From: Candidatus Zixiibacteriota bacterium
GTDB taxonomy: Bacteria > Zixibacteria > MSB-5A5 > GN15 > FEB-12
Assembly: GCA_029860345.1 (NCBI GenBank)
Contig: JAOUBJ010000001.1
Location: 1 to 64,000 of the forward strand
Length of the DNA: 64,000 bases
Direction of reading: 5' to 3'
Positions within the stretch are counted from its first letter, which is position 1. Each line of letters begins with the position of its first letter. Below are positions 1,064 through 17,683 of the stretch, in pieces. The notes beneath the pieces are model-generated. The model was not told the DNA's origin. It saw only the letters and a list, made by a program, of their open reading frames with translations, and did not search any database. The position numbers and the translations under genes are program-made.

Positions 1064-3490
1064 TTACTCCTCTTGGGCAACTTTCGCGACATCGGTGACA
1101 AGGTCACCATCGGACATTTTGATCAAGCGTACGCCCTGGGTGTTGCGACCGATCACCGAGATATCTTTCACCGCCTGGCGGTTGGCTATCCCTTCTTTGG
1201 TAATCAAAATCAACTCATCGCCGTCGAGAGCTTCCATTATCGTGACGACCTCACCATTGCGGTCGGATGTCTTGACATTGATGATCCCTTTGCCGCCACG
1301 ATTGGTGACCCGGTAATCGTTGACCGAAGAGCGTTTGCCGTAGCCGTTCTCGGTGACAACTAAGAGAGAACTGTCACGTTTGAGCACGACCATCCCGATA
1401 ACATAGTCACCCTTGCCGAGGTTGATCCCCTTGACGCCATAGGCGGTGCGACCCATAGAGCGCACTTTGCTTTCGGGGAACCTGATGGCCATGCCCTTAC
1501 GACTGGCCAGCACGATATCGGATGAACCGTCGGTTATCTGGGCTTCGATCAACTCGTCGTCGGTGGGCAGATTCATGGCGTTGACGCCAACGACGCGCGG
1601 ATTGGAGAAAGCATCCAAAGGCGTCTTCTTGATCACACCCGAGCGCGTAGCCATCACCACGAACCGGTCGGGCGAGAAATCGCGGACGCGACAGAAAGCA
1701 GTGATTGTTTCGCCGCGCTCCAACTTGCACATGTTGACGATCGGTTTTCCCTTGGCCAGTTTACCGCCGGTGGGGATAGCGTGTACCTTCACCCAATAGC
1801 AGCGTCCCTTGGTGGAGAAGAAGAGAATAAATTCATGCGTTGAAGCGATAAAGAGATGCTCGGCAAAATCCTCTTCTTTGGTGGCGATTCCCTTCACGCC
1901 GCGACCACCACGGTTCTGGCGACGGTAGGCCGACACTGAGAGTCGTTTGATGTATCCAAGGTGCGAGATAGTGATAGCCATCTCTTCTTCAGCGATGAGG
2001 TCCTCGACACTGAGTTCCTCGGCGGCGTCCTGGATTTCGGTGCGACGGTCGTCGCCGAACCGTTTGGCCAGGTCCTCGGTCTCTTCTTTGATGATATTCA
2101 TGCGCAGCGCCTTGGAAGCGAGAATCGCTTTGAGTTGCGTAATGCGCTTTATCAGTTCGCGGTATTCATCTTCGATCTTCTTGCGCTCAAGACCGGTCAG
2201 TCTTTGCAGACGCATCTCAAGGATGGCCGTCGCCTGCCGGTCGGAGAGCTTAAACTTCTTCATCAAACCGGCATGGGCGGTGGGAGTGTCTTTGGACTTT
2301 TTGATCAGCGTAATAACGGCGTCGATGTTGTCCAGGGCGATTCGGTATCCTTCGAGAATATGAGCCCGGGTCTCCGCCTTGTTCAGTTCAAACTGAGTGC
2401 GACGGGTGACAACCTCATGGCGGTGATCGACAAACGATTGGATCAGTTGTTTCAACGTTAGAAGCTTGGGAATACCGTGATCGAGTCCCAGCATCATCAC
2501 CGAAAACGTCGTCTGCATGGTGGTGTGTTTGTATAGTTGATTGAGAACGATATCGGCTTGCTGATCGCGTTTGAGTTCCACGACGATACGCATGCCGTCA
2601 CGATCGGATTCGTCGCGCAGATCGGAGATGCCTTCGATAACTTTGTCACGCACCAGGTCGGCTATTTTTTCAAGCAGGTTGGACTTGTTGACCTGATACG
2701 GAATCTCGGTGACGACTATAGCTTCCTTGCCGTTGGTCATGTGCTCAACGGCGGCCCGTGCGCGGACCAGCAGGCGACCCTTGCCGGTGCGGTAAGCTTC
2801 ACGGATACCTTCGCGACCGTTGATAATGCCGCCGGTCGGGAAATCCGGCGCCGACACTATCTCCATCAGATCCTCGTTTTCACAATCCGGTTCGGCGATC
2901 GTTTTCAAGATAGCTTCGGCAATTTCGCTGAGGTTGTGCGGAGGTATACTGGTAGCCATGCCGACCGCGATGCCGGTGGTGCCGTTGCAAATCAGATTGG
3001 GAAACTTACCGGGCAATACGGTGGGTTCTTCACGCGTGGCGTCATAGTTGGACATGAAGTCGACCGTCTCTTTGTCGATGTCGGCGAGAATCTCTACTGC
3101 AATCGGCGTCAGTCGCGCTTCGGTGTAACGCATGGCCGCTGCGCCGTCACCATCGATGGAACCGAAGTTACCCTGACCATCCACAAGCGGATAGCGCATG
3201 TTGAACGGCTGGGCCATCCGCACCAGAGTCGGATAGACCACTTGTTCACCGTGCGGATGATAGTTACCCGAGGTGTCGCCGGCAATCTTGGCGCATTTGC
3301 GATGGGCCTTGCCGGGGTTCAGATTAAGATCGTTCATTGCCACCAGGATTCGACGGTTCGACGGTTTCATCCCATCACGGATATCCGGTAGAGCGCGGTT
3401 GGTGATGACCGACATGGAGTAGTCGAGATATGATGACTTCATTTCCTCTTCGAGGAAGACCGTTTCGATCTTTTCGCTTTCAAGCGGCAT
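1064..3490 (-). CDS. gyrA: DNA gyrase subunit A
   Basis: An 808-residue GyrA, the breakage-reunion subunit of DNA gyrase, which with GyrB introduces negative supercoils. The N-terminal winged-helix and tower domains are intact, with the catalytic tyrosine at residue 122 in [11 protein letters not shown], the same number as in E. coli. The C-terminal beta-pinwheel domain begins with a GyrA-box, QNRGGRG, around residue 530, which favours gyrase over topoisomerase IV. SD-like AAGGA lies about 9 nt before the ATG. The quinolone-binding loop is unusual: [11 protein letters not shown] places Gln at 83 and Pro at 87, where quinolone-susceptible enzymes have Ser and Asp/Glu. No gyrB is in the window. 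Confidence 0.97.
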
Positions 3491-3725
3491 GAGGCGAATT
3501 CCTTATAAATCCGGGCAGTTTCGGTCAATTCATGGACTTTCAAAGTACGCATCTTAGTGGTTCAAGGCAACAAAAAACAGACCCCGGCCGTCAGTTGTAT
3601 CCACTTGGGCTACTATCGGTTACGTCGCCACAGACAGGTCGTGCAAGGGCGTGGGTTGCATTGCTTTGGGCGAGTTGCATCGTTGAATCTTGACATCAAC
3701 CGCCAAAACTGCGTATAAGATTAGA

Positions 3726-4247
3726 ATGCATTACAAGCACACTCACAGTCTTATTGTTGTTACATGCATCATAGCAGTGGTAATGACGACCGTTGTAGTT
3801 GCCGTCGGCGACGAACCGCCGTTCGATCCATACGTCCTGCTGGGAGAATGGAGCGGCGCCGGAATGTTGGTGATGCCGATGACGGGTGTCGAGCTGGAGG
3901 TTGAAGGGAGCGCCAGCTTTGTACAAGATTCATCAGGTGGTTACATTCGCACCGGCATATCCGGTACCAAGTTTCTCTACACCTATTCAGATTCAGGACA
4001 CTTCTACGTCAACCCCGACAACGACTCCCTGATCTGGGAAGTTTGGGACGGGTTTGGCCGCCACGGTATCTATGAAGGGATCGGCAGGGGCGACACGTTG
4101 ACAGGTCGTCGGAGAGGCGGCAATGCTGTTTTCCAGGTCACAACGACGATGGTAACACCCGACAGCCTGGATTTGCATTTGTACTACCTTGACAACAACG
4201 GACGTCGGTACCAGAAGGCTCGGCTTAACCTGGGACGTAACAGGTAG
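3726..4247 (+). CDS. Small exported protein of unknown function
   Basis: A 173-residue protein from the ATG at 3726; a TTG at 3690 would add 12 residues ahead of the signal sequence, so I prefer the ATG. Residues about 6-27 (LIVVTCIIAVVMTTVVVAVG) are a signal peptide or N-terminal anchor. The rest is polar and beta-rich (GEWSGAGM, LEVEGSASF, GIYEGIGRGDTLTGRR), resembling small lipocalin- or DUF1579-like barrels that measure change in a substrate, but I cannot assign a family. It is divergent from gyrA and converges on the radical SAM gene with 11 nt between them. Confidence 0.7.
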   Translation: MHYKHTHSLIVVTCIIAVVMTTVVVAVGDEPPFDPYVLLGEWSGAGMLVMPMTGVELEVEGSASFVQDSSGGYIRTGISGTKFLYTYSDSGHFYVNPDNDSLIWEVWDGFGRHGIYEGIGRGDTLTGRRRGGNAVFQVTTTMVTPDSLDLHLYYLDNNGRRYQKARLNLGRNR

Positions 4248-4258
4248 GCGCCGCTGCA

Positions 4259-5203
4259 TCACTCCTCAAAAGGATGATGATTGTCGAAATCCGGCAGATA
4301 ATGCGCAGAGCTGGACAGGTCCTGCACCCATCCGCGATAAAAACCAAGAACCTCAAACTCATCGATCACGCGATTGTATTCTTGGACACCGAGACACCGG
4401 TGCAATTGTTCGTGGCCCCTTACGGCGGCTGTGGGGTGGTATTGGGCCATGAGCGAAATGTGCACGTCCACCGACAGTTCCTCGGCAATGAAACGCAAGA
4501 CCTCTATACTGTTTTCGACGTGACCGGGCAACACCAAGTGTCTGATGATCAAACCGCTCGTTATGTAGCCGTCGTTATCCAGCTCAATGGCGGCTCCTTT
4601 TTGTCGGTACATTTCGTTGAGCGCTTTCGTAGCTACGCCGACATAGTCTGTTGCACCGGAGTACCGATGGGCTAGCTCATTGTCCATATACTTCATGTCC
4701 GGCAGGTAGACATCAATGACTCCCTCCAGGGAGCGAATGGTCTGAAGCCTGTCGTAACCGTTGGTATTGTAGACAAAGGTTGGGTTCCAGCCTCGATTGT
4801 TCAAGGCTGTCATGATGGCCCGCATCTGGGTCAGGCAGTGCGACGGCGATACAAAGCCAACGCCATGGGCGCCGCCCTTGAGAATGGTTTCGATTTGACC
4901 AACGGCCTCTTCAATGGACATGTCCACTGAGTTGAGGCTGCCTTGGTTGGAGGAGATTTGGTGGTTTTGACAGAAGATGCACTGCAAGTTGCAATGAGCG
5001 AAGAAGACATTGCATATACCCTGTGATCCCGACAACACCGGCTCCTCGCCCATGTGACAGCAGATCGATGATATTGGCAGTGAGGCATCGGTCCGACAGT
5101 ATCCCAGTTGGCCGTCGATACGGTCGACGCCGCACTCGCGGGGGCATAGCGTACATCGGTTCATGGGGTCCGGTCTGCTGTTTGGGTTGCTCTCCGTTGA
5201 CAT
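4259..5203 (-). CDS. PflX-type radical SAM protein
   Basis: A 314-residue radical SAM enzyme of the COG1313 (PflX, pyruvate formate-lyase activating enzyme-like) group. The N-terminus has the family's cysteine motif CTLCPRECGVDR (about residues 17-28), and the SAM-cluster motif CxxxCxxC appears as CNLQCIFCQNHQ (about residues 72-83). A glycine-rich SAM-contact segment (GGAHGVGFVSPSH) and NTNGYD follow. The family is expected to reductively cleave SAM to a 5'-deoxyadenosyl radical; the substrate of PflX proteins is unknown, and no pyruvate formate-lyase gene is in the window. No clear Shine-Dalgarno precedes the ATG; a second Met lies 13 residues in. Confidence 0.88.
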   Translation of the reverse strand: MSTESNPNSRPDPMNRCTLCPRECGVDRIDGQLGYCRTDASLPISSICCHMGEEPVLSGSQGICNVFFAHCNLQCIFCQNHQISSNQGSLNSVDMSIEEAVGQIETILKGGAHGVGFVSPSHCLTQMRAIMTALNNRGWNPTFVYNTNGYDRLQTIRSLEGVIDVYLPDMKYMDNELAHRYSGATDYVGVATKALNEMYRQKGAAIELDNDGYITSGLIIRHLVLPGHVENSIEVLRFIAEELSVDVHISLMAQYHPTAAVRGHEQLHRCLGVQEYNRVIDEFEVLGFYRGWVQDLSSSAHYLPDFDNHHPFEE

Positions 5204-5283
5204 GTTGATAAGATAGCAACAGTTCGTGTATCATTCAAGAGGTGGCATGCAACCTTTTTTGTGTTGGGCAGTATGGCCGTGTC

Positions 5284-5328
5284 ACTGGGTGGGGCACCCA
5301 CAGACCCGGTTTGAGGCGGCCACCCGTC
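5284..5328. repeat. Diverged copy of the left-end dispersed repeat
   Basis: GGTTTGAGGCGGCCACCCG here differs by one base from the core of the repeats at 13-151. The preceding GTGGGGCACCCACAGACC also resembles the sequence around 40,658-40,681. It lies in the gap between the radical SAM gene and the terminator of the large dockerin gene. Confidence 0.55.
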
Positions 5329-5406
5329 CGTTCAGGGTGAGGTTGAAGAGATGCACTGAGTTAGATTCTGGGCGCGCGAAGCCCCAAAGAGCGATTTATA
5401 GCAAAA

Positions 5407-5436
5407 AAGAAGCGAGGAGTAAACTCCTCGCTTCTT
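5407..5436 (-). terminator. Rho-independent terminator of the 1,656-residue dockerin gene
   Basis: A perfect 14-bp inverted repeat (AAGAAGCGAGGAGT / ACTCCTCGCTTCTT, loop of 2 nt). Read on the minus strand it is followed by a T run (TTTTTTGC) 30 nt beyond the stop codon of the dockerin gene. Confidence 0.88.
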
Positions 5437-5466
5437 ATATAGTCAGTGAACTGACTTTCTAGGAGA

Positions 5467-8400
5467 CTAGAAGCACCAGTCACCACACGGGCACGGGCCG
5501 TCGTTGTACAGGAACTCCGCGAGATAAATCACGTCGTCCATGTCAACGTCGCCGTCACAGTCAACGTCGCCCAGGTGCATAAACGGAATCGGTCCGGGAC
5601 CGGTACCATTCACGTAGCGAGCGAGGCAAACTACGTCGCCAACATCGATGGCGCCGTCATTGTTGACGTCGCCACGACCAAAGCCGAGCCACTTGTTAGC
5701 CAATGCCGCGAGGGCGTCGACTTCAGTAGCGTCGCCTGAGGTTCCGTGCAGACCAAACTGAGCCACGGCGAGTTCGTATGTGTCGCCGCCGGCAAAGTCG
5801 TGTCCTGCGATAGTGAAGTGAGCTTCACGATCGCTGGTGAACGGAGCCTGGGAGTACTCACCGGCGGGCCGGTTCATGAAGTCCCAAGCAGAGTCGCCAA
5901 GATATAGAGTCGGAGTGTTGAACCACATACCGTCGCCGTGTCCGGAAACGGAGTTGATCAGCGGAGTGAAGTCCACATTCGGGTTGCTACCGCAACCAAA
6001 CGGGAACTTGATCATACCCCATTGGGTATCACCAACACCACCATTGCTGACCCACGCCGCCGATCCGGCTGCGGAACGAGAAGCGATATCATCACTGCCA
6101 ACGTCATAGTCCATGGTGGCACCCATGCGCCAGCCATCGACCGGGTCACCGTTACGCTCGGTGATTTCCATGATGTCAACGGTGAGGTCCTTCAGAGGCT
6201 CAAAGTCGACAGCACCCACCGTGCGTGAGTTACACATAAGACCCATGGTCAGATCGTTATCGAACGGTGCGCCGTAGTTCGACCAATCCCAGCCGCCACC
6301 CAGATCAAAGTTCTGCATGGAGTCAAGGTAGGTCGCACAAACACGGTTACCCATGATCGGCTCATATGTAAGGCCGTCAGTGGAGTATCCACCAAGACAG
6401 CTCAGCGTCACGCCTTCATCGATGTGAGCTTTACACATGTCGTCACACCAGTTCGGATCCGGCTGCATCGACCAATACGATTCAGCTTCGCCGCCACCAG
6501 AATACCAATCCTGGGTGCTAAGAGCCTGCTCAAAGACACCACCGGCCCAAACGAACGAACCCTGATAAACAGAGGCGTCGTCGCCGTCGATGTCGATAGC
6601 ATGCGGATCCCAGTCGCCGGTACCGATACGACCATTGTTGGTCACGAGCTGCGTGTTACCGCCGCCCATGCCGAACTGCATGGTCGTAGTGTCGATAAGA
6701 CAGCCACCCACGATAGTCACGTGGATTTCGGGGGCGCCATAGAGAGTCTGACCACAAACATCGTGGAGGTAGAAGTCAGGATCGTTTGACGGAATTACGA
6801 TATAGAAATCCTGAGGTCCACGAAGGATCATCGACTGGTTGACGTCAAGAACGAGATCAGCCGTGTCGCCGGCGGCAAGAATGTCGCCTGCGTGCGGCCA
6901 GACAACCGCTTCGGTGTGAGTCGCGTACTGCAGGAACGGAACGCCTGCATCGGCGCCCAGATTCAACATCTGTTCGCCACGATCACGAAGCACGAAGTAG
7001 TCATCGACATCAGCTTCCGGACGGGCCGGGATAGCTTTGAGCTCGAATCCTTCAGTCAAACGATCGGTGATACTGGAGGCACGATCCATCACGTCTGGAC
7101 GCACGTTGGCCGGAGCAAAGTCCGGAGGAATCCAGGGATGGTTCGCACTTGTGTTGGTCTCGAGTTGACCAAAGATCAAGTCGGTACAACCGGTGTTGAC
7201 CAACTCATTCGGGAGCGGTACGTGCAAGGAGGTGGCCGGACCAAACTCAACCGAAGGAGAAGGCTGGTACGACTGAATCTCCAAGCGCGGACGATCATCA
7301 CCCTTGGCCAATACGGAGAGAGTTCCGTAGAGGTCACTTATGGCCAGGTAGCCAGGACCAATCGCCGCACTGAGGGCGATAGAGTTCGGGAAACCACCAT
7401 AAGTAATACGGCGACGGAAGATTTCGTCACCAGTTGCGGAATTGCGGAAGTCAATGAAGCCATGATGACCGACATCGATCAGAATGTCATCAGCGCCTTC
7501 CGGCTCGCAACTGAGGGCCATGTCGCCACGGTACGTATTGTACTCAGGGCTGGAGGTCGCCCACACCGAGGCACCAGTGGTTTTGTTGAACGCAAGGATC
7601 AACCCACCGGCCGGCGGGGTCGCCCACCAGGACTGACCGGCTTGATAGATGCGGGCACGGTCGACGACCGGGCCGGCAGCAGTACCGGCAGTATTGGGAC
7701 GATGTGAAGGTACCGCGTAGGCTACTGATCCGTCGCTGGTGTTGATGCCATACATGACACCGTCACCGGGATGATACGGAGCAGCAATACTGGAGTTGAC
7801 AAACAACAGACTCTTCTCCAGATCGACGGCGTTAGGAGCGGCAAAACCTTCACCACCCTGCGGGCCTTCCGGATAGACTGTGGCAGCCTGTAGGCCACCG
7901 GCTGTTGACAACTGCCAGTTGATGGCGCCGGAGGCGCCGTCGATGGCGTATACATCACCTTCCACACCACCCGGATAGGTGTTGTAGAAAAGCTGTGAGC
8001 CATCGGTCGAACCGGACTTAAGCGGTGCGCCAGGAGCTATGTACACCGGGTTGGAAGCCCAACCGCCGTACAGAGCGCCGGTCGCTGCATCGACAGCAAC
8101 GATAGCACCGTCATCGGTACCGAAGTACAGAACGTCGGTTCCACCCTGATCCAGAATGATAAACGAACCGTAACGGGTCTGGCCAAAGAGGCCGCCGACG
8201 CCGACGGATGTAATATCACGGCTCCAGATCGGAGCGCCGGTAGCGAAGTCCCATGCACTTGTTGATTGCTGGTCACCACCGGACAGATACATGACACCAC
8301 CAGCGATATGCGGGGTGCAACGAATCTGGTTACCCAGCGGGAAGCCAGTAAGCGTGTATAGGGCGGCACCAGTAGCCAAATCCTTCACCTGGACCTGGTT

Positions 8401-10437
8401 ATCCCAGGCACAAGCAATCTTGTCGCCGGAAATAGCGGGACCGGTGTAGAAAATTTGGTTGGTGGGATGAGTGTAGCACCACTGCGTGGTCAGATCGCAC
8501 TGAGCATCGCTAAAGGAATTGAACGATGCGCCGGTACGTTGCTGATCGTGCTGATGCGTGACCCAGCCTTCGCCATTAGGATCACATACCCGCTCTTCGT
8601 GCGGGATGCAACAATGATAGGATTCGGCGAGGAATGCGATATCGCAAGGCACGCCGCCCCAATCGACACAGAGCAGACCCCAGAAACCGTTCCAGAGTTC
8701 GGCTGCGCCATTCATCCAGCCACCGCCACCAAAGTCTGTCATGGTAGCAATACCCTCAGCTTCGGTCGGTGACAAGGATTCAATCGAGACCCAGTAGAGG
8801 CCTTGAATGGCCACGGCCAACGGAGCGAAGTCGACGGTTGTGTAACTGGGGAACATCACATAATCAGCCGGGGTCAAAGTAACAGAGGCCAATGCCGGGC
8901 CAGGCAGACCACCCACATCTTCGTGGACTGAAACCACGGAGTTGTGAGCATAGGCCACGCCCGGATTGAAGTCATAGAGAGCCCAGGAGACTTCTCTGAC
9001 TTCACACTCTTGCCCAACGGATTTCATCAACTGGGCATCGGCAACGTCGCCGTAAGCATCCGGCAGAGTCCAGTAATACTGCGGACCTACGTCGTACCAA
9101 ACCAACTCACATTCGAAGTAGGGGTCTTTACACAGGTTAGCAGTGTATTTCATGTCGACATCGATGCCAAAGAGGTCACCGATGGTCCACCAGTCGCCAC
9201 CGTAGATACAGTAGGAACGACCGTGGCCGGTTGTTTCATCATCCGACAAGGTGCCTTCGAAGTCGCCGGCACCGAGATCACCGGTCGAGTTGAAGGAGAC
9301 ATAGAAGTCCCCCGAACCCAAGACCAGGTTGTGGGCTGAGAAATCAACATTAGTGTATGCCGGATGGTACACATAGGTTCCCGCCGGGACGGTTTCCTGT
9401 GCAATAACCGAGCCAGGATAGCCGGCATTGTCATCCCATACACTGATAATCAAGTCGTCATTACCGACGATACCGGCGTTCTGCGAGGAGGAACCCGTAA
9501 AGTCGTAGACATCGATATCTACGGACTGAAGGGTTTCAACTCCGGCTACAGTAAACCGTTGTGCATAGTCGATAATACCATAAGCGTCGTGAGGAGCTTT
9601 CCACCAGTAGGCAGTGCCCTCATCCCAGCTTTGAGAATAGCAATCGGTAAAAGGTAACTCATAGCAACAACGCTCAGATGTCATGAGGAAGCATACATCC
9701 TCACCCCAGTCAGCAAGCATCGTACCCCAGAAGCCGTTCCAGTTTTCACTGGCCCGTTCTTCACCGGTGTACGAGTGCGGACCGGTACCTTTATCGGACA
9801 CGCACCACAACGTGTCACCATCGCCGCCCAGGGTAGACCAGCCGATATGGTATTCTTCACCATTAGTGAAGACCCAATCGGCAGCCGCCCAGTTGGCTTC
9901 GGCCCACCAGAAGGATCCGCCCATGGCGGCATTAGGTACATCGGTCGAGTCCAGCTTGTTGCCGGGGAAACCGAAGCCGTCGTCGTCCCATAGGTACACC
10001 CGCATATCCGGAGTACCGGTGGCAAAACCACCATACATCAGGACCCAACCGACCTTCAGAGTACACTCAATACCTTCTTCGACGGTAAAGCGCATATTCA
10101 TGAGATCGTCGCCCCAGGCATCCGGAATACTCCACACCCAGACGGATGAAACCGTGTCGTCGTAGTAGCCTATGTCTTCACAGAAGTAGGCTGACGGAGG
10201 GCTTGAAGCAACGCCGGACATCTGAACCTCGATGGGACCTTGATCCATCGGCTTCTTGAACGAAGCCGGGGCTGGACGAGCGTCTTCGATGTCATTGTAG
10301 AGTTGAGCGTTCGGGTTGACAGTCGGTATAGCATTCAGCGCCTCTACCGGCTTCTCCCCGATGCCTGAAATTGCCGTACCGCTGAGGGAAAAAACGAGAC
10401 CCAGAACGAATACTGCGAATAACAGTCTTTTTAACAT
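5467..10437 (-). CDS. Giant secreted dockerin protein with PQQ-like propeller
   Basis: A 1,656-residue exported protein with a strong SD (AAGGAGGAAT) just before its ATG. Residues 1-25 are a signal peptide. Roughly residues 80-600 hold three related beta-sandwich modules, each with a PDAWGD/PDAYGD-like motif, a VYLWDD/SVWDD-like strand and paired cysteines near the module ends. Residues about 620-1,060 form a PQQ-like beta-propeller with repeated AWDFATGAPIW, AVDAATGALYG and AIDGASGAINW blades. A further beta-rich region follows, and the last about 65 residues are a tandem dockerin type I-like pair (DVNNDGAIDVGDVVCLARY and DVDCDGDVDMDDVIYLAEF), each with the Ca-binding DxNxDGxxDxxD loop. No enzyme signature is seen. 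A role as extracellular adhesin or scaffold-bound protein is inference. Confidence 0.9.
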   Translation of the reverse strand: MLKRLLFAVFVLGLVFSLSGTAISGIGEKPVEALNAIPTVNPNAQLYNDIEDARPAPASFKKPMDQGPIEVQMSGVASSPPSAYFCEDIGYYDDTVSSVWVWSIPDAWGDDLMNMRFTVEEGIECTLKVGWVLMYGGFATGTPDMRVYLWDDDGFGFPGNKLDSTDVPNAAMGGSFWWAEANWAAADWVFTNGEEYHIGWSTLGGDGDTLWCVSDKGTGPHSYTGEERASENWNGFWGTMLADWGEDVCFLMTSERCCYELPFTDCYSQSWDEGTAYWWKAPHDAYGIIDYAQRFTVAGVETLQSVDIDVYDFTGSSSQNAGIVGNDDLIISVWDDNAGYPGSVIAQETVPAGTYVYHPAYTNVDFSAHNLVLGSGDFYVSFNSTGDLGAGDFEGTLSDDETTGHGRSYCIYGGDWWTIGDLFGIDVDMKYTANLCKDPYFECELVWYDVGPQYYWTLPDAYGDVADAQLMKSVGQECEVREVSWALYDFNPGVAYAHNSVVSVHEDVGGLPGPALASVTLTPADYVMFPSYTTVDFAPLAVAIQGLYWVSIESLSPTEAEGIATMTDFGGGGWMNGAAELWNGFWGLLCVDWGGVPCDIAFLAESYHCCIPHEERVCDPNGEGWVTHQHDQQRTGASFNSFSDAQCDLTTQWCYTHPTNQIFYTGPAISGDKIACAWDNQVQVKDLATGAALYTLTGFPLGNQIRCTPHIAGGVMYLSGGDQQSTSAWDFATGAPIWSRDITSVGVGGLFGQTRYGSFIILDQGGTDVLYFGTDDGAIVAVDAATGALYGGWASNPVYIAPGAPLKSGSTDGSQLFYNTYPGGVEGDVYAIDGASGAINWQLSTAGGLQAATVYPEGPQGGEGFAAPNAVDLEKSLLFVNSSIAAPYHPGDGVMYGINTSDGSVAYAVPSHRPNTAGTAAGPVVDRARIYQAGQSWWATPPAGGLILAFNKTTGASVWATSSPEYNTYRGDMALSCEPEGADDILIDVGHHGFIDFRNSATGDEIFRRRITYGGFPNSIALSAAIGPGYLAISDLYGTLSVLAKGDDRPRLEIQSYQPSPSVEFGPATSLHVPLPNELVNTGCTDLIFGQLETNTSANHPWIPPDFAPANVRPDVMDRASSITDRLTEGFELKAIPARPEADVDDYFVLRDRGEQMLNLGADAGVPFLQYATHTEAVVWPHAGDILAAGDTADLVLDVNQSMILRGPQDFYIVIPSNDPDFYLHDVCGQTLYGAPEIHVTIVGGCLIDTTTMQFGMGGGNTQLVTNNGRIGTGDWDPHAIDIDGDDASVYQGSFVWAGGVFEQALSTQDWYSGGGEAESYWSMQPDPNWCDDMCKAHIDEGVTLSCLGGYSTDGLTYEPIMGNRVCATYLDSMQNFDLGGGWDWSNYGAPFDNDLTMGLMCNSRTVGAVDFEPLKDLTVDIMEITERNGDPVDGWRMGATMDYDVGSDDIASRSAAGSAAWVSNGGVGDTQWGMIKFPFGCGSNPNVDFTPLINSVSGHGDGMWFNTPTLYLGDSAWDFMNRPAGEYSQAPFTSDREAHFTIAGHDFAGGDTYELAVAQFGLHGTSGDATEVDALAALANKWLGFGRGDVNNDGAIDVGDVVCLARYVNGTGPGPIPFMHLGDVDCDGDVDMDDVIYLAEFLYNDGPCPCGDWCF

Positions 10438-11916: not shown

Positions 11917-11970
11917 ATGACTGGCCGAGGCTGCTCCATCCGGGGCAGCTTTGTTTGTTATTCCGTTTGA
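11917..11970 (+). CDS. Possible 17-residue peptide ORF
   Basis: ATG at 11,917 is preceded at 7 nt by AGGAGG, one of the best ribosome binding sites in the window. The frame encodes MTGRGCSIRGSFVCYSV and stops at 11,968-11,970. It overlaps the hairpin at 11,930-11,949. It could be a leader peptide for the Rad50-like gene downstream, a second small peptide, or chance. Confidence 0.3.
   Translation: MTGRGCSIRGSFVCYSV
11930..11949 (+). terminator. Terminator-like hairpin after the Cys-rich gene
   Basis: An 8-bp stem GCTGCTCC/GGGGCAGC (one G-U pair) with a 4-nt loop, followed by TTTGTTTGTT. It probably ends the transcript of the small Cys-rich gene, or attenuates transcription into the Rad50-like gene. 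Confidence 0.5.
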
Positions 11971-12032
11971 ACGGCTTTGGCCTCACAATGTCCTTGACAG
12001 GTGGGTTAGGTGGCAGGTTTCTTAGCTATCAG

Positions 12033-14444
12033 ATGCGCCTGCTCTCATTGGACATAAATAACTTCCGGGTTATCAGAAAGGCGACACTGCCGTTGCCGGA
12101 TCGCGTCATCGGTGTGATCGGCCCCAACGGCGCCGGCAAGTCCTCACTGGTGGAGGCAATTGCCTGGGTGCTCTACGGCAACCAGGCGGCACGCAGCGGT
12201 AAAGATGAGATTAAGTCTCAGTTTGCCGGTGCCGGTGAAAACTGCGAGGTCACTTTGGATTTCGAGGTAAATGACGTGCCCTATAAAGTGACACGCCGGT
12301 TGGTGGGTAGGAAGGAAAAGGCCGAAGTGGAATTGTTCCGGGGTGAAGCGGCCGAATCGGTGGGCGTAAACGAGACTCGGCAGTATGTCGGCCAGCTTTT
12401 GGGGCTGGATTTCAAGGGGTTTCTGACATCGTTCCTGGCCCGCCAGCAGGAGTTGAACGCCCTCTCGGATCTTCAGCCCTCCAAACGTCGGGACCATCTT
12501 GCCGGGATGCTTGGTATCGAACGGCTTGATCGAGGCATAATCAAGCTGAAAGAAGACCTTCGCCTGGAATCACGTCAAATCGAATTCATGGAGCAGCAGT
12601 TAAGCCATCGGACCAACCTGGCTGCCGAGATCGAACGGCTGACCACCCACTTGGGACAACTCAGTGGTCGCCAGGTTTCAATAGAAACAGGGGTCAGGAA
12701 TGCCGAAGCTGCGGTCAAGTCGGTATCTGATAGAGCGGCGCAGCTTCAGGATACCAAATCGCAGTGGACACAACTGACGGCTCAGATACAGGCAGAACAA
12801 GGATCATTGACCTCACTTGAGCAGCGGCAAGCCGACCTGCAGAAAGAGGCCGACAAGCTGGCCAAAATGAAAACCCAGGCAAAAACGCTGGCAGGCACCT
12901 TGCAGGCACTTCCGAAAGTTCGCCGGGAGCTGGAAAAACACAAGGCTGCCCGCAGCAGCGTAGACGTGCGGAAGCAGATAATAACACAGCTTGAGGCTGC
13001 CCGTTCTGACTTGAAGAATGTCACAGGCGCGATTGAACTTGGTCAGGGCCGATTGAAGTCCACCAAGGCCAAGCTGAAGGCAATACCTGCTGATGTCGCC
13101 GAGCAACTAAAACAGACGCAGAGCAATCTGGAAGATGCCCGCACCTCGTTTAGCCGGCTCAAAGCAACTCGTGATAGCCTGGCTACTCAGGCCGACAAAC
13201 TGACCCGGCAGGTCGGTCAGGTGGACAGGTTTGGGCCGGACTCGGTCTGTGATCGCTGCCACCGACCCCTCGGCGAAGACCTGCCAACGATTCGTAAGCA
13301 TCTGATTGAGGAACTGGACAGCCTAAAAAAGCAATTGGCCGAGCACGACCGCGACCTGCTCAAGCAGGAAAAGGGTGGTGGTCAACTCAAGAAACAGTGG
13401 TCGGAACTCGACCGGCAAACCAAGACAAGATACGAGGCTGAGGTCGACCGGATCGCAGATGAGAAAGAACAGGCCACATTAGAGAAGCGAAAAACAGACC
13501 TAACAACCGCTGTCGACAAGCTCACCGAGCAGTTGGCTCAGACTGCCGAAGTGACCCTGGACGAAGAGGCTCACACTCGGTTATCGGAGCAATTGGCCCA
13601 ACTGGAGGAGGGCCAGAATCAGCGGCAGCTATTGTTGGGCAAACTGGATCGCCTGCCGGTGGTGTCCAAAGAGTCCACCGAGACCAAAACCAAACTGAAC
13701 CAGGCGGCGGGTGCAATCGATAAGTTAAACGCACGGCTGACCGCCTTGAACTATGATCAGAAAGCAGCCGATCAGGTAGCGACCGAGCTGGTAACTGCAC
13801 AAGAACATCTCGACAAAGCGCGCGGCGAGCAATATGCGCACACGAAAGACGTCGAGATCACACAGTCGGAGATGAATGAGAAGCTCCGGCAAAAGCAAGC
13901 TCTTGAAAAAGCCGAAGCCGAACTGGAAGAGCATCAGACCTCCCGTTACCATCGCGAGAAACTGGGCCTGCTGATGGCTGAGTTCAGGCAGCATCTGATC
14001 ACACGTATCCGGCCACGGCTGGCTGACCTGTCGAGCGGACTGTTCTCGGACATGACCGGCGGGAAATACAGTATGGTCGAGCTTGACGAAAAGTATAACC
14101 TGCGAGTATGGGATTCCGGGCAGTTTTTCGGCGTCGAACGTTTCTCCGGCGGCGAGAAGGACCTGGCCAATCTCTGCCTGAGGCTAGCCATCTCATTGGC
14201 CCTGACCGAGTCGGCCGGGCTGAGTCGATCATTTGTCATCCTGGATGAGGTGTTTGGTTCGCAGGACAATGAGCGCAAGGAGCTCATTATTGGCGCCCTC
14301 GGCTCACTCAAAAACCGGTTCCCCCAGCTTTTGTTGATCACGCATGTCGAGGACATTAGGGACCGGGTCGAAGAGTTGATCGAAGTCAGGCCGACCTCAC
14401 AGGGCTACTCGGAGGTGATCGTCAATGAAGTCGCCGTTGGTTAG
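12033..14444 (+). CDS. sbcC: Rad50/SbcC-like ATPase
   Basis: An 803-residue SMC-family ATPase. I chose the ATG at 12,033 because the protein then begins MRLLSLDINNFRVIRKA, the usual Rad50/SbcC N-terminus; a TTG at 11,955 adds 26 atypical residues. The Walker A motif is GPNGAGKSS (about residues 31-39). A long coiled coil follows, split near residue 404 by a zinc-hook CxxC (CDRCHRP). The C-terminal ATPase lobe has the ABC signature RFSGGEKDLANL and Walker B SFVILDEVFGSQD. With SbcD/Mre11 such proteins process DNA ends and hairpins. No sbcD is adjacent. Instead the gene overlaps by 20 nt a nuclease-fold gene, implying translational coupling. Confidence 0.88.
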   Translation: MRLLSLDINNFRVIRKATLPLPDRVIGVIGPNGAGKSSLVEAIAWVLYGNQAARSGKDEIKSQFAGAGENCEVTLDFEVNDVPYKVTRRLVGRKEKAEVELFRGEAAESVGVNETRQYVGQLLGLDFKGFLTSFLARQQELNALSDLQPSKRRDHLAGMLGIERLDRGIIKLKEDLRLESRQIEFMEQQLSHRTNLAAEIERLTTHLGQLSGRQVSIETGVRNAEAAVKSVSDRAAQLQDTKSQWTQLTAQIQAEQGSLTSLEQRQADLQKEADKLAKMKTQAKTLAGTLQALPKVRRELEKHKAARSSVDVRKQIITQLEAARSDLKNVTGAIELGQGRLKSTKAKLKAIPADVAEQLKQTQSNLEDARTSFSRLKATRDSLATQADKLTRQVGQVDRFGPDSVCDRCHRPLGEDLPTIRKHLIEELDSLKKQLAEHDRDLLKQEKGGGQLKKQWSELDRQTKTRYEAEVDRIADEKEQATLEKRKTDLTTAVDKLTEQLAQTAEVTLDEEAHTRLSEQLAQLEEGQNQRQLLLGKLDRLPVVSKESTETKTKLNQAAGAIDKLNARLTALNYDQKAADQVATELVTAQEHLDKARGEQYAHTKDVEITQSEMNEKLRQKQALEKAEAELEEHQTSRYHREKLGLLMAEFRQHLITRIRPRLADLSSGLFSDMTGGKYSMVELDEKYNLRVWDSGQFFGVERFSGGEKDLANLCLRLAISLALTESAGLSRSFVILDEVFGSQDNERKELIIGALGSLKNRFPQLLLITHVEDIRDRVEELIEVRPTSQGYSEVIVNEVAVG

Positions 14445-15096
14445 ATTTGGGCCCAAGGGCCGGACCCTTATCCGGGTCTCGTTGGTGATTCTGATCACCG
14501 CCGTGATTGTCTGTTACCGGCTGGCCGAGGACATCGGTGTTGACCTCAAACCGGATGATCGTTGGATCATTGTGACGGTCATCGACGGCGACACGGTCGA
14601 GTTGGCCGGCGGCGACAAACTGAGACTGGCCAATATCGACACACCTGAGATCGACGAACCATTCTTCGAAGAAGCCAAGCAGTTCCTGACCGACATAGCC
14701 TTGCACCAGTCGGCACGGGTGGAGTACATCCGAGAACGTCGAGACAAGTACGGACGGTTGCTGGGTTGCTTGTTTATCGACTCTGTTTTTGCCGGGGAGG
14801 CTATACTGGAACGAGGTTTAGGATACCTTCTGTTGTTCGACAACAATGATCTTAACCGCCCTCTGGTCCAGCGACTGTTGGCGGCCCAACATCGGGCAAT
14901 GGAGTCGGGCCTTGGTCTTTTCTCTCTTGTCCGCACACCGGAAGAACACTACCTGGCGACATATCGAAGTTTTCGGTTTCATCGTCCCGGTTGCGAGTAT
15001 GTGGGTGAGTACCGCCCTGATCGATATCGCATGTTCGACACTCGCGATAGCGCTTTATTCGAAGGCCTCTCCCCCTGCCGCAGTTGTAAGCCGTAG
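14425..15096 (+). CDS. Membrane-anchored staphylococcal-nuclease-like protein with C-terminal metal-binding module
   Basis: A 223-residue protein starting 20 nt inside the Rad50-like gene. Residues about 13-32 are hydrophobic (VSLVILITAVIVCYRLA), a signal-anchor. Residues about 48-165 match the thermonuclease (SNase) fold: VIDGDTVEL, KLRLANIDTPEID, and RRDKYGRLLGCLF with the Arg and Asp/Glu expected around the active site. The last about 45 residues (FHRPGCEYVGEYRP to CRSCKP) match the Ada-like metal-binding module often appended to secreted SNases. It is expected to cleave nucleic acid on the outer face of the cytoplasmic membrane, which makes a direct partnership with a cytoplasmic Rad50 homologue puzzling. 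Confidence 0.85.
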   Translation: MKSPLVRFGPKGRTLIRVSLVILITAVIVCYRLAEDIGVDLKPDDRWIIVTVIDGDTVELAGGDKLRLANIDTPEIDEPFFEEAKQFLTDIALHQSARVEYIRERRDKYGRLLGCLFIDSVFAGEAILERGLGYLLLFDNNDLNRPLVQRLLAAQHRAMESGLGLFSLVRTPEEHYLATYRSFRFHRPGCEYVGEYRPDRYRMFDTRDSALFEGLSPCRSCKP

Positions 15097-15447: not shown

Positions 15448-15476
15448 TTGACTCGACCTCCGGATCAAACTATACT
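15448..15476 (+). promoter_or_regulatory. Sigma-70-like promoter for the subtilase gene
   Basis: TTGACT, 17-bp spacer, TATACT. The predicted start near 15,483 gives a leader of roughly 215 nt before the subtilase ATG at 15,700. Confidence 0.65.
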
Positions 15477-15699: not shown

Positions 15700-17079
15700 A
15701 TGGCCAGTGTAAAACCATCGTCGGCCAAAGCAGACGGTTCCGAAGTTCGGTTCGAGGTAGTGGTAAAACCGGAGGGTGAAAGCAGGTCGGTTTTCGACCC
15801 CGATGCCTTTCCCACTATTGCCAACCTGGACGAGTTCCGGTCTCCCAAGGGGCGGAGTATCAAAGCTGCGCGGAAACTACAAAAGAACGACATCACCGTT
15901 CACCACATAGGTGAGTTCAGCATTTCCGCTTCCTGTCCCGAAGCGAAATTCGAGTCGTTTTTCGGTACAAAGATCAGCCAGCACCGACCGCCCAAGAAAG
16001 CTCTGGCCCCCGCCGATTACGTGATGCGGGCACCCAAGAAAGGTGAGGACTGGAAACTTCCTACAGAGGATAATCTCGATAAACTCATCGAGAAAGCATA
16101 CATCCAGCACGATCCTATACTGTTCGCCGGTGAGCGTCCGATACCGCCGTTCTGGAAGGACAAGTTTCGCCTGCGGGTGCCGGTCGACGTTGCCCAAATA
16201 ATGAAGGCTTCGTCGGTGCACAAGAAAGGCATTACCGGCGATGGTGTGAGGGTGGTTATGCCGGATACCGGATTCTATCACCATCCCTACTTCAAGGAAC
16301 AGGGGTACAATTTTCTGGCCGTGACGACCCCCGATGTTATCGACTATACGTCTGATGCCAGCGGTCACGGCACCGGCGAATGTGCCAATCTACTGGCCAC
16401 GGCCCCCGGCATCAACTTCATCGGGTTGAAAAAAGGCAACACTACGCTGGCCATCAAAACCGCCGTCGAGTTGCGCGCCGACATTATCACCTGCAGTTGG
16501 GGTTATAGTGAAGATTTACCGGGGACAAGCATGCCGAGTTGGCTGAAGCCGCTCTATCTGGCCGTTCTCGACGCCGTGAGTAAAGGTATCACCGTTTGCT
16601 TCTCGGCTGGTAACGGCCACTTTGGTTTCCCCGGCAGCATGCCGGAAGTCATCAGCGTCGGGGGCGTAGTAGTCGATGAGAAACTGAACTACTCAGCCAC
16701 CAGGTACACCAGCGGTTTCGAGTCAACCTGGTTCCCGGGACGCGATGTGCCGGACATATCCGGGTTGTGCGGTGCGCCGCCCTCCGCAGACTACATTGTT
16801 CTGCCTGTTCAGAAGGGCTGTAGTCTGGAGAAAGCCGGTGGCTGGGGCGCTTTCAGCGGAACCTCGGCGGCCAGTCCGATGGTGGCCGGTGTCTGCGCTC
16901 TGTTGAAAGAGGCTGACCCGACCTTGACACCCAATGACATCAAGAATATACTGAAGTACACGGCGCGTGATATCACAGTCGGCAAGAACTCCATGAACAA
17001 GAGCGCCGTTCCAGGACCGGACCTGGCCACCGGATACGGGCTGGTAGACGCCGAACGAGCCATGGAGACAGTATTATAA
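15700..17079 (+). CDS. S8 (subtilisin-like) serine peptidase without a signal peptide
   Basis: A 459-residue protease. The ATG at 15,700 is preferred because AAAAGGAG lies about 8 nt upstream; an upstream start at 15,655 has none. Residues 1 to about 125 resemble a propeptide (DEFRSPKGRSIKAARKL, then ISASCPEAKFESFFGTKIS), the pattern seen in sedolisin/subtilase pro-regions. The S8 domain then has all three catalytic residues: Asp in MPDTGF, His in SGHGTGE and Ser in GTSAASP, plus the oxyanion-region SAGNG. No signal peptide or membrane segment is visible, so a cytoplasmic or non-classically released enzyme is expected. A sigma-70-like promoter lies upstream and the small propeptide-like gene 87 nt downstream. 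Confidence 0.88.
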   Translation: MASVKPSSAKADGSEVRFEVVVKPEGESRSVFDPDAFPTIANLDEFRSPKGRSIKAARKLQKNDITVHHIGEFSISASCPEAKFESFFGTKISQHRPPKKALAPADYVMRAPKKGEDWKLPTEDNLDKLIEKAYIQHDPILFAGERPIPPFWKDKFRLRVPVDVAQIMKASSVHKKGITGDGVRVVMPDTGFYHHPYFKEQGYNFLAVTTPDVIDYTSDASGHGTGECANLLATAPGINFIGLKKGNTTLAIKTAVELRADIITCSWGYSEDLPGTSMPSWLKPLYLAVLDAVSKGITVCFSAGNGHFGFPGSMPEVISVGGVVVDEKLNYSATRYTSGFESTWFPGRDVPDISGLCGAPPSADYIVLPVQKGCSLEKAGGWGAFSGTSAASPMVAGVCALLKEADPTLTPNDIKNILKYTARDITVGKNSMNKSAVPGPDLATGYGLVDAERAMETVL

Positions 17080-17112
17080 ACCGACTGCCGGTCTGTGTCT
17101 GATCATTGTTCT

Positions 17113-17146
17113 GCGGCAGCTTTCGCCTTTTGGCGAGAGTTGCCGC
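17113..17146 (+). other. Intercistronic hairpin between protease and propeptide-like gene
   Basis: A 15-bp imperfect stem (GCGGCAGCTTTCGCC pairing with GGCGAGAGTTGCCGC through G-U pairs, 4-nt loop of T). No T tract follows. It may stabilise the upstream mRNA or partly terminate, which would set different protein levels for the two genes. Confidence 0.5.
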
Positions 17147-17166
17147 CACTTTAAGAGAGAGATGAC

Positions 17167-17520
17167 ATGCCAGAGAGTCCCCAACAGCAAGTGCAGTTCG
17201 ATCTAACGGTCAAGGCACCGGGGTCGGGTCAGGATGCCTCCCTGGCGACGATCGATCAACATCGCCCCAGTAGCGAACACATTGAGCGATGCCGGCGATG
17301 GTTGGCCTCGCTTGGCGTGGAATGTCATGCCACCGCCTTCGGTCTGGCCGGGAAAGCAGCGAAGCCGCTGTTTGAATCGATCTTCAGCTGCGCACTACGT
17401 CGGATTGATGCTGGTCCGGGACGGCCCTTGTGGGAAGCCTCTTCGCCACCCCAGGCTCCACCCGAAATCGAACAGTTCGTACACCAGATCACAATCGGCG
17501 CCGAACCGGAATTGTTCTAA
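17167..17520 (+). CDS. Stand-alone protease propeptide-like protein
   Basis: A 117-residue protein without a signal peptide. Its middle (IDQHRPSSEHIERCRRWLASLGVECHATAFGLAGKAAKPLFESIF) reads like the pro-region of sedolisin/subtilase enzymes: an F/H-R-P-S turn, a helix with R-x-W-L, G-V/L-x-V, then a helix ending F-x-x-x-F. The same pattern occurs at the N-terminus of the adjacent S8 peptidase (SPKGRSIKAARKL ... PEAKFESFFG). Stand-alone proteins of this type can act as intramolecular-chaperone or inhibitor partners (compare the I9 family). The pairing with the upstream protease is inferred from proximity and shared pattern. A strong terminator follows. Confidence 0.65.
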   Translation: MPESPQQQVQFDLTVKAPGSGQDASLATIDQHRPSSEHIERCRRWLASLGVECHATAFGLAGKAAKPLFESIFSCALRRIDAGPGRPLWEASSPPQAPPEIEQFVHQITIGAEPELF

Positions 17521-17577
17521 GCAGAAAATGACAACCAGTGCTTGAACGATTGCCTGGTTTCTCCCATCAGGTAAGAA

Positions 17578-17603
17578 ACGCCCGACCGTTCTCGGTCGGG
17601 CGT
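17578..17603. terminator. Bidirectional rho-independent terminator
   Basis: An 11-bp perfect stem ACGCCCGACCG/CGGTCGGGCGT with a TTCT loop. It is followed by T-rich DNA on the plus strand (TGAGTTTGTT) and TTTCTTAC on the minus strand, between the convergent propeptide-like and dockerin genes. Confidence 0.8.
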
Positions 17604-17683
17604 TGAGTTTGTTATGCGTGGTGTGGGTCCCGGTGCGACACGCAGCCATCGGGGCAAACCGAGGGTCTGCTCACGCCTGGACG

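Follow-up and report, generated by a model that had tools for sequence, protein, structure and literature searches.

The stretch of DNA analysed here (64,000 nucleotides in full, hereafter the window) carries the gene for a subtilase of family S8 followed by a gene whose product, on profile comparison, is a free paralogue of the N-terminal propeptide of that protease. The two genes probably form a module of protease and dedicated propeptide, the free protein acting as an inhibitor in trans and possibly as an aid to folding. Stand-alone propeptide inhibitors are already known from SUB1-ProM and POIA1 and, functionally, from ASP/ORF2; a free propeptide of the S53 type encoded next to an S8 protease with a retained built-in propeptide seems to be a novel bacterial form of this principle. 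No description of such a bacterial pair was found in the open literature that was searched.

As a rule, subtilases are export proteins that lose their propeptide outside the cell. A cytoplasmic subtilase needs another brake, which here would apparently be provided by a duplicate of the gene segment encoding the enzyme's own propeptide. The pair would be a bacterial equivalent of the stand-alone propeptide inhibitors of eukaryotes; it also joins a sedolisin-type propeptide to an S8 enzyme and provides a set of protein pairs open to direct expression and testing.

A subtilase gene and its small downstream neighbour

The main features of the locus are the following.

15700..17079, + strand: gene 1, S8 subtilase of 459 aa (PF00082 match, catalytic triad, no signal peptide)
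15700..16125, + strand: built-in propeptide domain of the protease, residues 1-142 (~142 residues), predicted sedolisin/pro-kumamolisin-like fold
16264-16266, + strand: catalytic D189, from homologue and subtilisin alignments
16366-16368, + strand: catalytic H223, from the same alignments
16612-16614, + strand: oxyanion N305, from the same alignments
16864-16866, + strand: catalytic S389, from the same alignments
17113..17146, + strand: intergenic hairpin with a perfect 15-bp stem and a UUUU loop (z -5.1)
17167..17520, + strand: gene 2, free propeptide protein of 117 aa with the C-terminus ...AEPELF

Gene 1 starts with an ATG preceded by an AAGGAG ribosome site, and its product matches PF00082 with an E value of 1e-25. 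Residues D189, H223, S389 and N305 are invariant across 12 homologues and each aligns with its counterpart in subtilisin, so that the intact Asp-His-Ser triad proposed in an initial reading of the sequence alone (hereafter the sequence-only reading) was confirmed. Subtilase domain, Asp-His-Ser triad and oxyanion Asn, the features that define MEROPS family S8, are thus all present; assignment to the S53 sedolisins, whose triad is Ser-Glu-Asp, was not supported, the histidine of the S8 triad being present and invariant in GHGTGE. The closest solved homologues of the protease by sequence are subtilisins. No domain besides S8 was found in it, and NCBIfam and PADLOC searches returned generic S8 matches only, the PADLOC subtilase match being weak. 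In a full-length AlphaFold model the propeptide alone was confident, the catalytic domain having a pLDDT of about 25.

Kyte-Doolittle analysis detected no hydrophobic N-terminal segment in either gene product, the best 12-residue means being 0.52 for the protease and 0.20 for the small protein, and such a segment is likewise missing in nearly all relatives. The protease indeed has no signal peptide, as the sequence-only reading had stated, and is predicted to be cytoplasmic.

Gene 2 follows on the same strand after a gap of 87 bp. The two window proteins are too diverged for BLASTP, which gave no usable match between them, and their homology had to be established with profiles: the free protein and the built-in propeptide share 24% identity, and hhalign of the free protein against the protease N-domain gave a probability of 98.6 and an E value of 6e-16. 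In a related locus from the same class as the window (G005), the pair is similar enough for BLASTP (33% identity over 128 aa, E 1e-19), and the alignment ends at PPELF in both proteins. A profile built from eight free proteins only was searched against six whole genomes. It recovered the free gene with E values of 1e-40 to 3e-46 and, as second match, the N-domain of the neighbouring protease (2e-8 to 5e-6); nothing further was found in these genomes except one match at E 0.08. These searches bear out the earlier description of the gene 2 product as a 117-residue propeptide-like protein. The sequence pattern on which that description drew fared less well, R-P-S and G-x-x-V being exact only in the small protein, with R-S-P and D-I-T-V at the corresponding places of the protease. 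In Calothrix the free gene is independently annotated as encoding a hypothetical protein.

Both propeptides are modelled with a sedolisin-type fold

A model of the free protein was built from 14 window and related sequences (mean pLDDT 86). In VIA-align its best match was pro-kumamolisin (1T1E; Z 9.6, rmsd 3.8, 113 of 117 residues aligned), followed by TPP1 (3EE6 and 3EDY, Z 8.8 and 8.5) and a next row at 7.5, whereas propeptides of the S8 type and POIA1 scored 5.9-6.5 (POIA1, 5.9). The model of the built-in domain gave the identical three top rows: 1T1E (Z 8.6, residues 35-167), 3EE6 (8.1) and 3EDY (7.9), and Foldseek placed a sedolisin-type propeptide at rank 1 for this domain. The likeness to protease propeptides that had been anticipated for both the protease N-terminus and the small protein was therefore found.

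In profile searches of the kind that the sequence-only reading had recommended, no family member matched the Pfam I9 profile at E values up to 1. The pro-kumamolisin profile PF09286 matched weakly in three of eight free proteins (best E 2e-4) and in five of eight built-in domains (best 0.0047), and the free protein of locus L076 reached 17.5 bits against a curated cut-off of 23.5; the window proteins gave no match to it. The shared top fold matches indicate that an S8 catalytic domain here carries a sedolisin-type propeptide and that the free protein shares its fold; judged from the models, both propeptides are sedolisin-like (S53/pro-kumamolisin) and not of the I9 type. Pro-kumamolisin and TPP1 (1T1E, 3EE6) resemble the window proteins in this propeptide fold and differ in their catalytic domain, which is S53 (Ser-Glu-Asp) in the former and S8 (Asp-His-Ser) in the latter. 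To our knowledge, S53 propeptides have not been known as products of separate genes.

The free protein ends at the predicted processing site

The C-termini were compared in an alignment of all 14 pairs. In the eight core members the free protein ends 0-1 residues beyond the column of protease residue Phe142, the predicted P1 residue after which the protease would process itself; in the other members it ends 1-8 residues beyond. The window protease reads PILF-AGERP around Phe142, and most free proteins read PELF. The four divergent members L076, L077, L078 and L079 have tails running 2-8 residues past the P1-aligned position, at which Phe gives way to Gly, Gly, Tyr or His. In the structural alignment, residue 117 of the free protein corresponds to residue 169 of 1T1E, the neighbourhood of which we take to be the primary cleavage site region of pro-kumamolisin. 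Since it ends at the position aligned with Phe142, the free protein resembles a ready-made, cleaved, product-like propeptide, and the simplest reading of the alignment would be that its end is the predicted autoprocessing end of the built-in propeptide.

Distribution and evolution of the pair

A free gene near the protease and on the same strand was found in all 14 loci of the protease family, the window included, so the adjacency, which the sequence-only reading had proposed to check, is conserved; these loci span about eight phyla, although most source genomes are metagenome-assembled and individual placements may be contamination. Neither of the two refuting conditions of that reading, a small protein structurally unlike protease propeptides or a neighbourhood that is not conserved, was thus encountered. 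Six relatives with proteases 63-71% identical come from Pirellulaceae, Desulfocapsaceae, Rhodospirillaceae, two Gemmatimonadota and Nitrospira, and in all six the free gene is directly downstream of the protease gene. The protease of G005 is 39% identical and has the free gene too. More distant carriers of the free gene are G681, G872, G993, G1655, Calothrix and Nonomuraea, the last two with the free gene upstream of the protease. When the small protein alone was searched against the class, G005 was the only real match among many chance ones, most of them with internal stops. Viral contigs yielded no relatives, and phage records only distant S8 matches.

The protease occurs in just one to three of the about 290-350 genomes covered by each phylum or class search, and no further genes common to the flanks of the core loci were found. 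This rarity within each phylum and the lack of common flanking genes suggest that the protease and free gene spread horizontally as a self-contained unit. Just upstream of the pair, the window has a gene for an SbcC/Rad50-like ATPase (11955-14444), which overlaps a staphylococcal-nuclease-like gene (14425-15096); neither is conserved beside the protease pair in relatives.

All family members keep the built-in propeptide. Rhizobium relatives of about 30% identity have it with no free copy within 5 kb, so that possession of a free copy distinguishes the closer members of the family. Between the window and its core relatives, identity is 30-48% for the free protein, 40-60% for the built-in domain and 74-79% for the catalytic domain. 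The free copies fall into more than one group in the tree, and a single clade was not rejected by the AU test (p 0.18); a single old duplication and a few repeated ones both fit.

Comparison with known systems

Subtilases are tightly inhibited by their cognate propeptides, whose C-terminal tail lies in the active-site cleft (PMC10580911). Stand-alone propeptide-like inhibitors include Plasmodium SUB1-ProM, Pleurotus POIA1, yeast IB2, Arabidopsis SPI-1 and Toxoplasma MIC5, of which SUB1-ProM inhibits potently and is encoded next to subtilase genes (PMC6993865). The gene 2 product shares with this class its origin from a small separate gene, the propeptide fold and a C-terminal tail that is predicted to be aimed at the active site. 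The five examples are all eukaryotic and of the I9/S8 propeptide type, whereas the window protein is bacterial with a sedolisin-type fold; it also differs in lacking a signal peptide, in being a recognisable paralogue of its neighbour's propeptide and in having a P1-aligned end.

Among bacteria, ORF2 of Aeromonas sobria, encoded downstream of the S8 protease ASP, both matures and inhibits ASP by binding the active site with its C-terminus (PMC5638518). ASP is secreted and propeptide-deficient, whereas in the window protease a propeptide is built in and a signal peptide is missing; an external chaperone pair of the ASP/ORF2 type, with a protease devoid of propeptide, was not matched, a built-in propeptide being present throughout the family. 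Protealysin and emfourin are an intracellular protease and its co-encoded inhibitor from one bacterial operon, but protealysin is an M4 metalloprotease, the window enzyme belonging to S8, and emfourin is not reported as a propeptide copy in that work (PMC9505478). QhpE, from the qhp operon, is like the window enzyme a cytoplasmic S8 protease, and the window family gives a weak profile match to it; QhpE cuts a defined leader peptide once and no free propeptide partner is described (PMC7876137). By analogy with cognate propeptides, SUB1-ProM, ORF2 and emfourin, the free protein most likely holds a cytoplasmic protease inactive in trans.

Proposed mechanism and alternatives

The proposed mechanism builds on homology, fold, conserved pairing, the position of the C-terminus and the missing signal peptides, from which we infer autoprocessing, binding, inhibition and a physiological trigger. 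With its built-in sedolisin-type propeptide, the cytoplasmic S8 protease would fold and then cleave its own chain after Phe142. The free protein, as a second propeptide copy ending at the cut site, would mimic the cleaved product, dock on the mature catalytic domain and place its C-terminal Pro-Glu-Leu-Phe in the S4-S1 pockets. This would keep the enzyme inactive in trans up to the point where the inhibitor is broken down or the protease exceeds it in number, and the free protein may additionally help folding. Homology, fold and conserved neighbourhood, as envisaged by the sequence-only reading, are supported, and the chaperone or inhibitor role that it proposed would be the natural interpretation of them. 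Points against a dedicated module are the divergent tails of L076-L079, the Rhizobium relatives devoid of a free copy, and the protease's own propeptide, which by the usual rule makes a second copy unneeded for folding.

Recurrence of the two-gene pair in about eight phyla makes it very probable that the loose copy is a dedicated inhibitor or folding partner, and that gene 2 is a chance neighbour or a functionless, decaying duplicate can practically be dismissed: its similarity to the built-in propeptide is low in the window genome (24%), but across these phyla the free proteins keep an intact frame, invariant fold positions and a conserved C-terminus. As a folding partner, the free protein would act mainly as an intermolecular chaperone in trans, with inhibition secondary. 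We consider this credible but unlikely. Aeromonas ASP needs the downstream-encoded ORF2 for its activity, the C-terminus of ORF2 being in the active site (PMC5638518), and the adjacency of free gene and protease in 14 of 14 loci would fit such a role; ASP is, however, without a propeptide, whereas every protease of the present family retains one, and the lower conservation of the free copy relative to the built-in domain fits an inhibitor better, if not decisively.

Divergent members of the family point in another direction. The proteases of L076, L077, L078 and L088 all bear repetitive C-terminal extensions and have neighbours of modified-peptide pathways, namely a TIGR03975 RiPP C-methyltransferase (L076, L077) or SPASM radical SAM genes (L078, L088); QhpE, moreover, performs single-turnover processing in a radical SAM pathway (PMC7876137). 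The free protein could accordingly serve peptide maturation as an adaptor with a regulatory role, a decoy or a substrate, sensing some signal or bringing a target to the protease. We regard this as improbable, since C-terminal repeats are missing from the window locus and from its six nearest relatives, and these loci do not share such neighbour genes. It is also conceivable, albeit speculative, that the pair is a stripped-down peptide-maturation module and that in the divergent relatives the protease is its own precursor, its tail being modified while the free propeptide holds it inactive, then freed to cut. Were this so, bacteria would have in free sedolisin-type propeptides a general means of switching cytoplasmic subtilases. 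The toxin-immunity pair suggested by the sequence-only reading, in which competitors would receive the protease while the producer is protected by the free propeptide, found no support and is judged very improbable. The layout, two genes of which the small one diverges fast, recalls protease/immunity operons such as protealysin/emfourin, where this role is a published proposal (PMC9505478), and between the two Gemmatimonadota loci the free copy has indeed diverged faster (78% identity) than the catalytic domain (94%). Yet both proteins lack signal peptides and delivery domains, the neighbourhoods were found to share no secretion or effector genes, the PADLOC match is weak and generic, and the protease already carries a propeptide of its own.

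Expression signals

The intergenic hairpin noted in the sequence-only reading exists as described, and the 114-nt stretch that was folded has an MFE of -44.7 kcal/mol. The hairpin was rejected as a classical terminator because no T-run follows the stem. Strong intergenic hairpins occur in three of seven core loci (window, L051 and L052), with unrelated sequences, and are missing in the other four. The proposal that the hairpin sets different expression levels is thus possible for the window but not general; such hairpins may tune expression in some hosts and are not part of a conserved design. In L052 the free propeptide gene has its ribosome site and start codon inside a long inverted repeat (7378-7450, z -5.0). 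Three further candidates in the window are consensus matches only.

15448..15476, + strand: sigma-70-like promoter candidate TTGACT-17-TATACT, upstream of the protease gene
16924..16952, + strand: further element inside gene 1
17577..17604, + strand: intrinsic-terminator-like hairpin after gene 2 (12 pairs, 9 GC)

As consensus matches, the promoter and terminator candidates would fit one two-gene unit.

Neighbourhoods of divergent relatives

In L088 the protease gene (3637-5559, - strand), a SPASM radical SAM gene (2223-3680, - strand) and the free propeptide gene (1901-2389, - strand) are consecutive, and L078, from another phylum, has the same three genes in this order (3657-8432, + strand). 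Both proteases end in an array of about ten C-x-R-A-P-x hexapeptides, an arrangement reminiscent of a fusion between a peptide core and its protease. The L078 protease gene, from G993, has an IS630-like transposase in its middle (4439-5524, - strand). Pro-Ile-rich C-terminal repeats of the protease are found in L077 (180-5044, - strand) and L076 (942-5433, - strand) along with the TIGR03975 radical SAM gene and the free propeptide. L077 also has a weak 2OG-Fe(II) oxygenase match; a similar-looking gene in L076 is without NCBIfam match, and the radical SAM reading frame of L076 is split in two. These four loci suggest a link between part of the family and modified peptides. Radical SAM and subtilase genes also occur together in a published clone (PMC6423787), which was set aside because its arrangement differs.

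The Rhizobium leguminosarum plasmid relatives of the protease (L081, 3103-11386, and L084) are surrounded by folE, adenylosuccinate synthetase, purB, queE, IMP dehydrogenase and nitrile hydratase genes, with an AMP-ligase-like gene before the protease, and this neighbourhood resembles a 7-deazapurine nucleoside cluster. A Mesorhizobium plasmid relative (L083, 1364-10966) lies beside beta-RFAP synthase-like, purC-like and purH genes, a setting reminiscent of C-nucleoside clusters.
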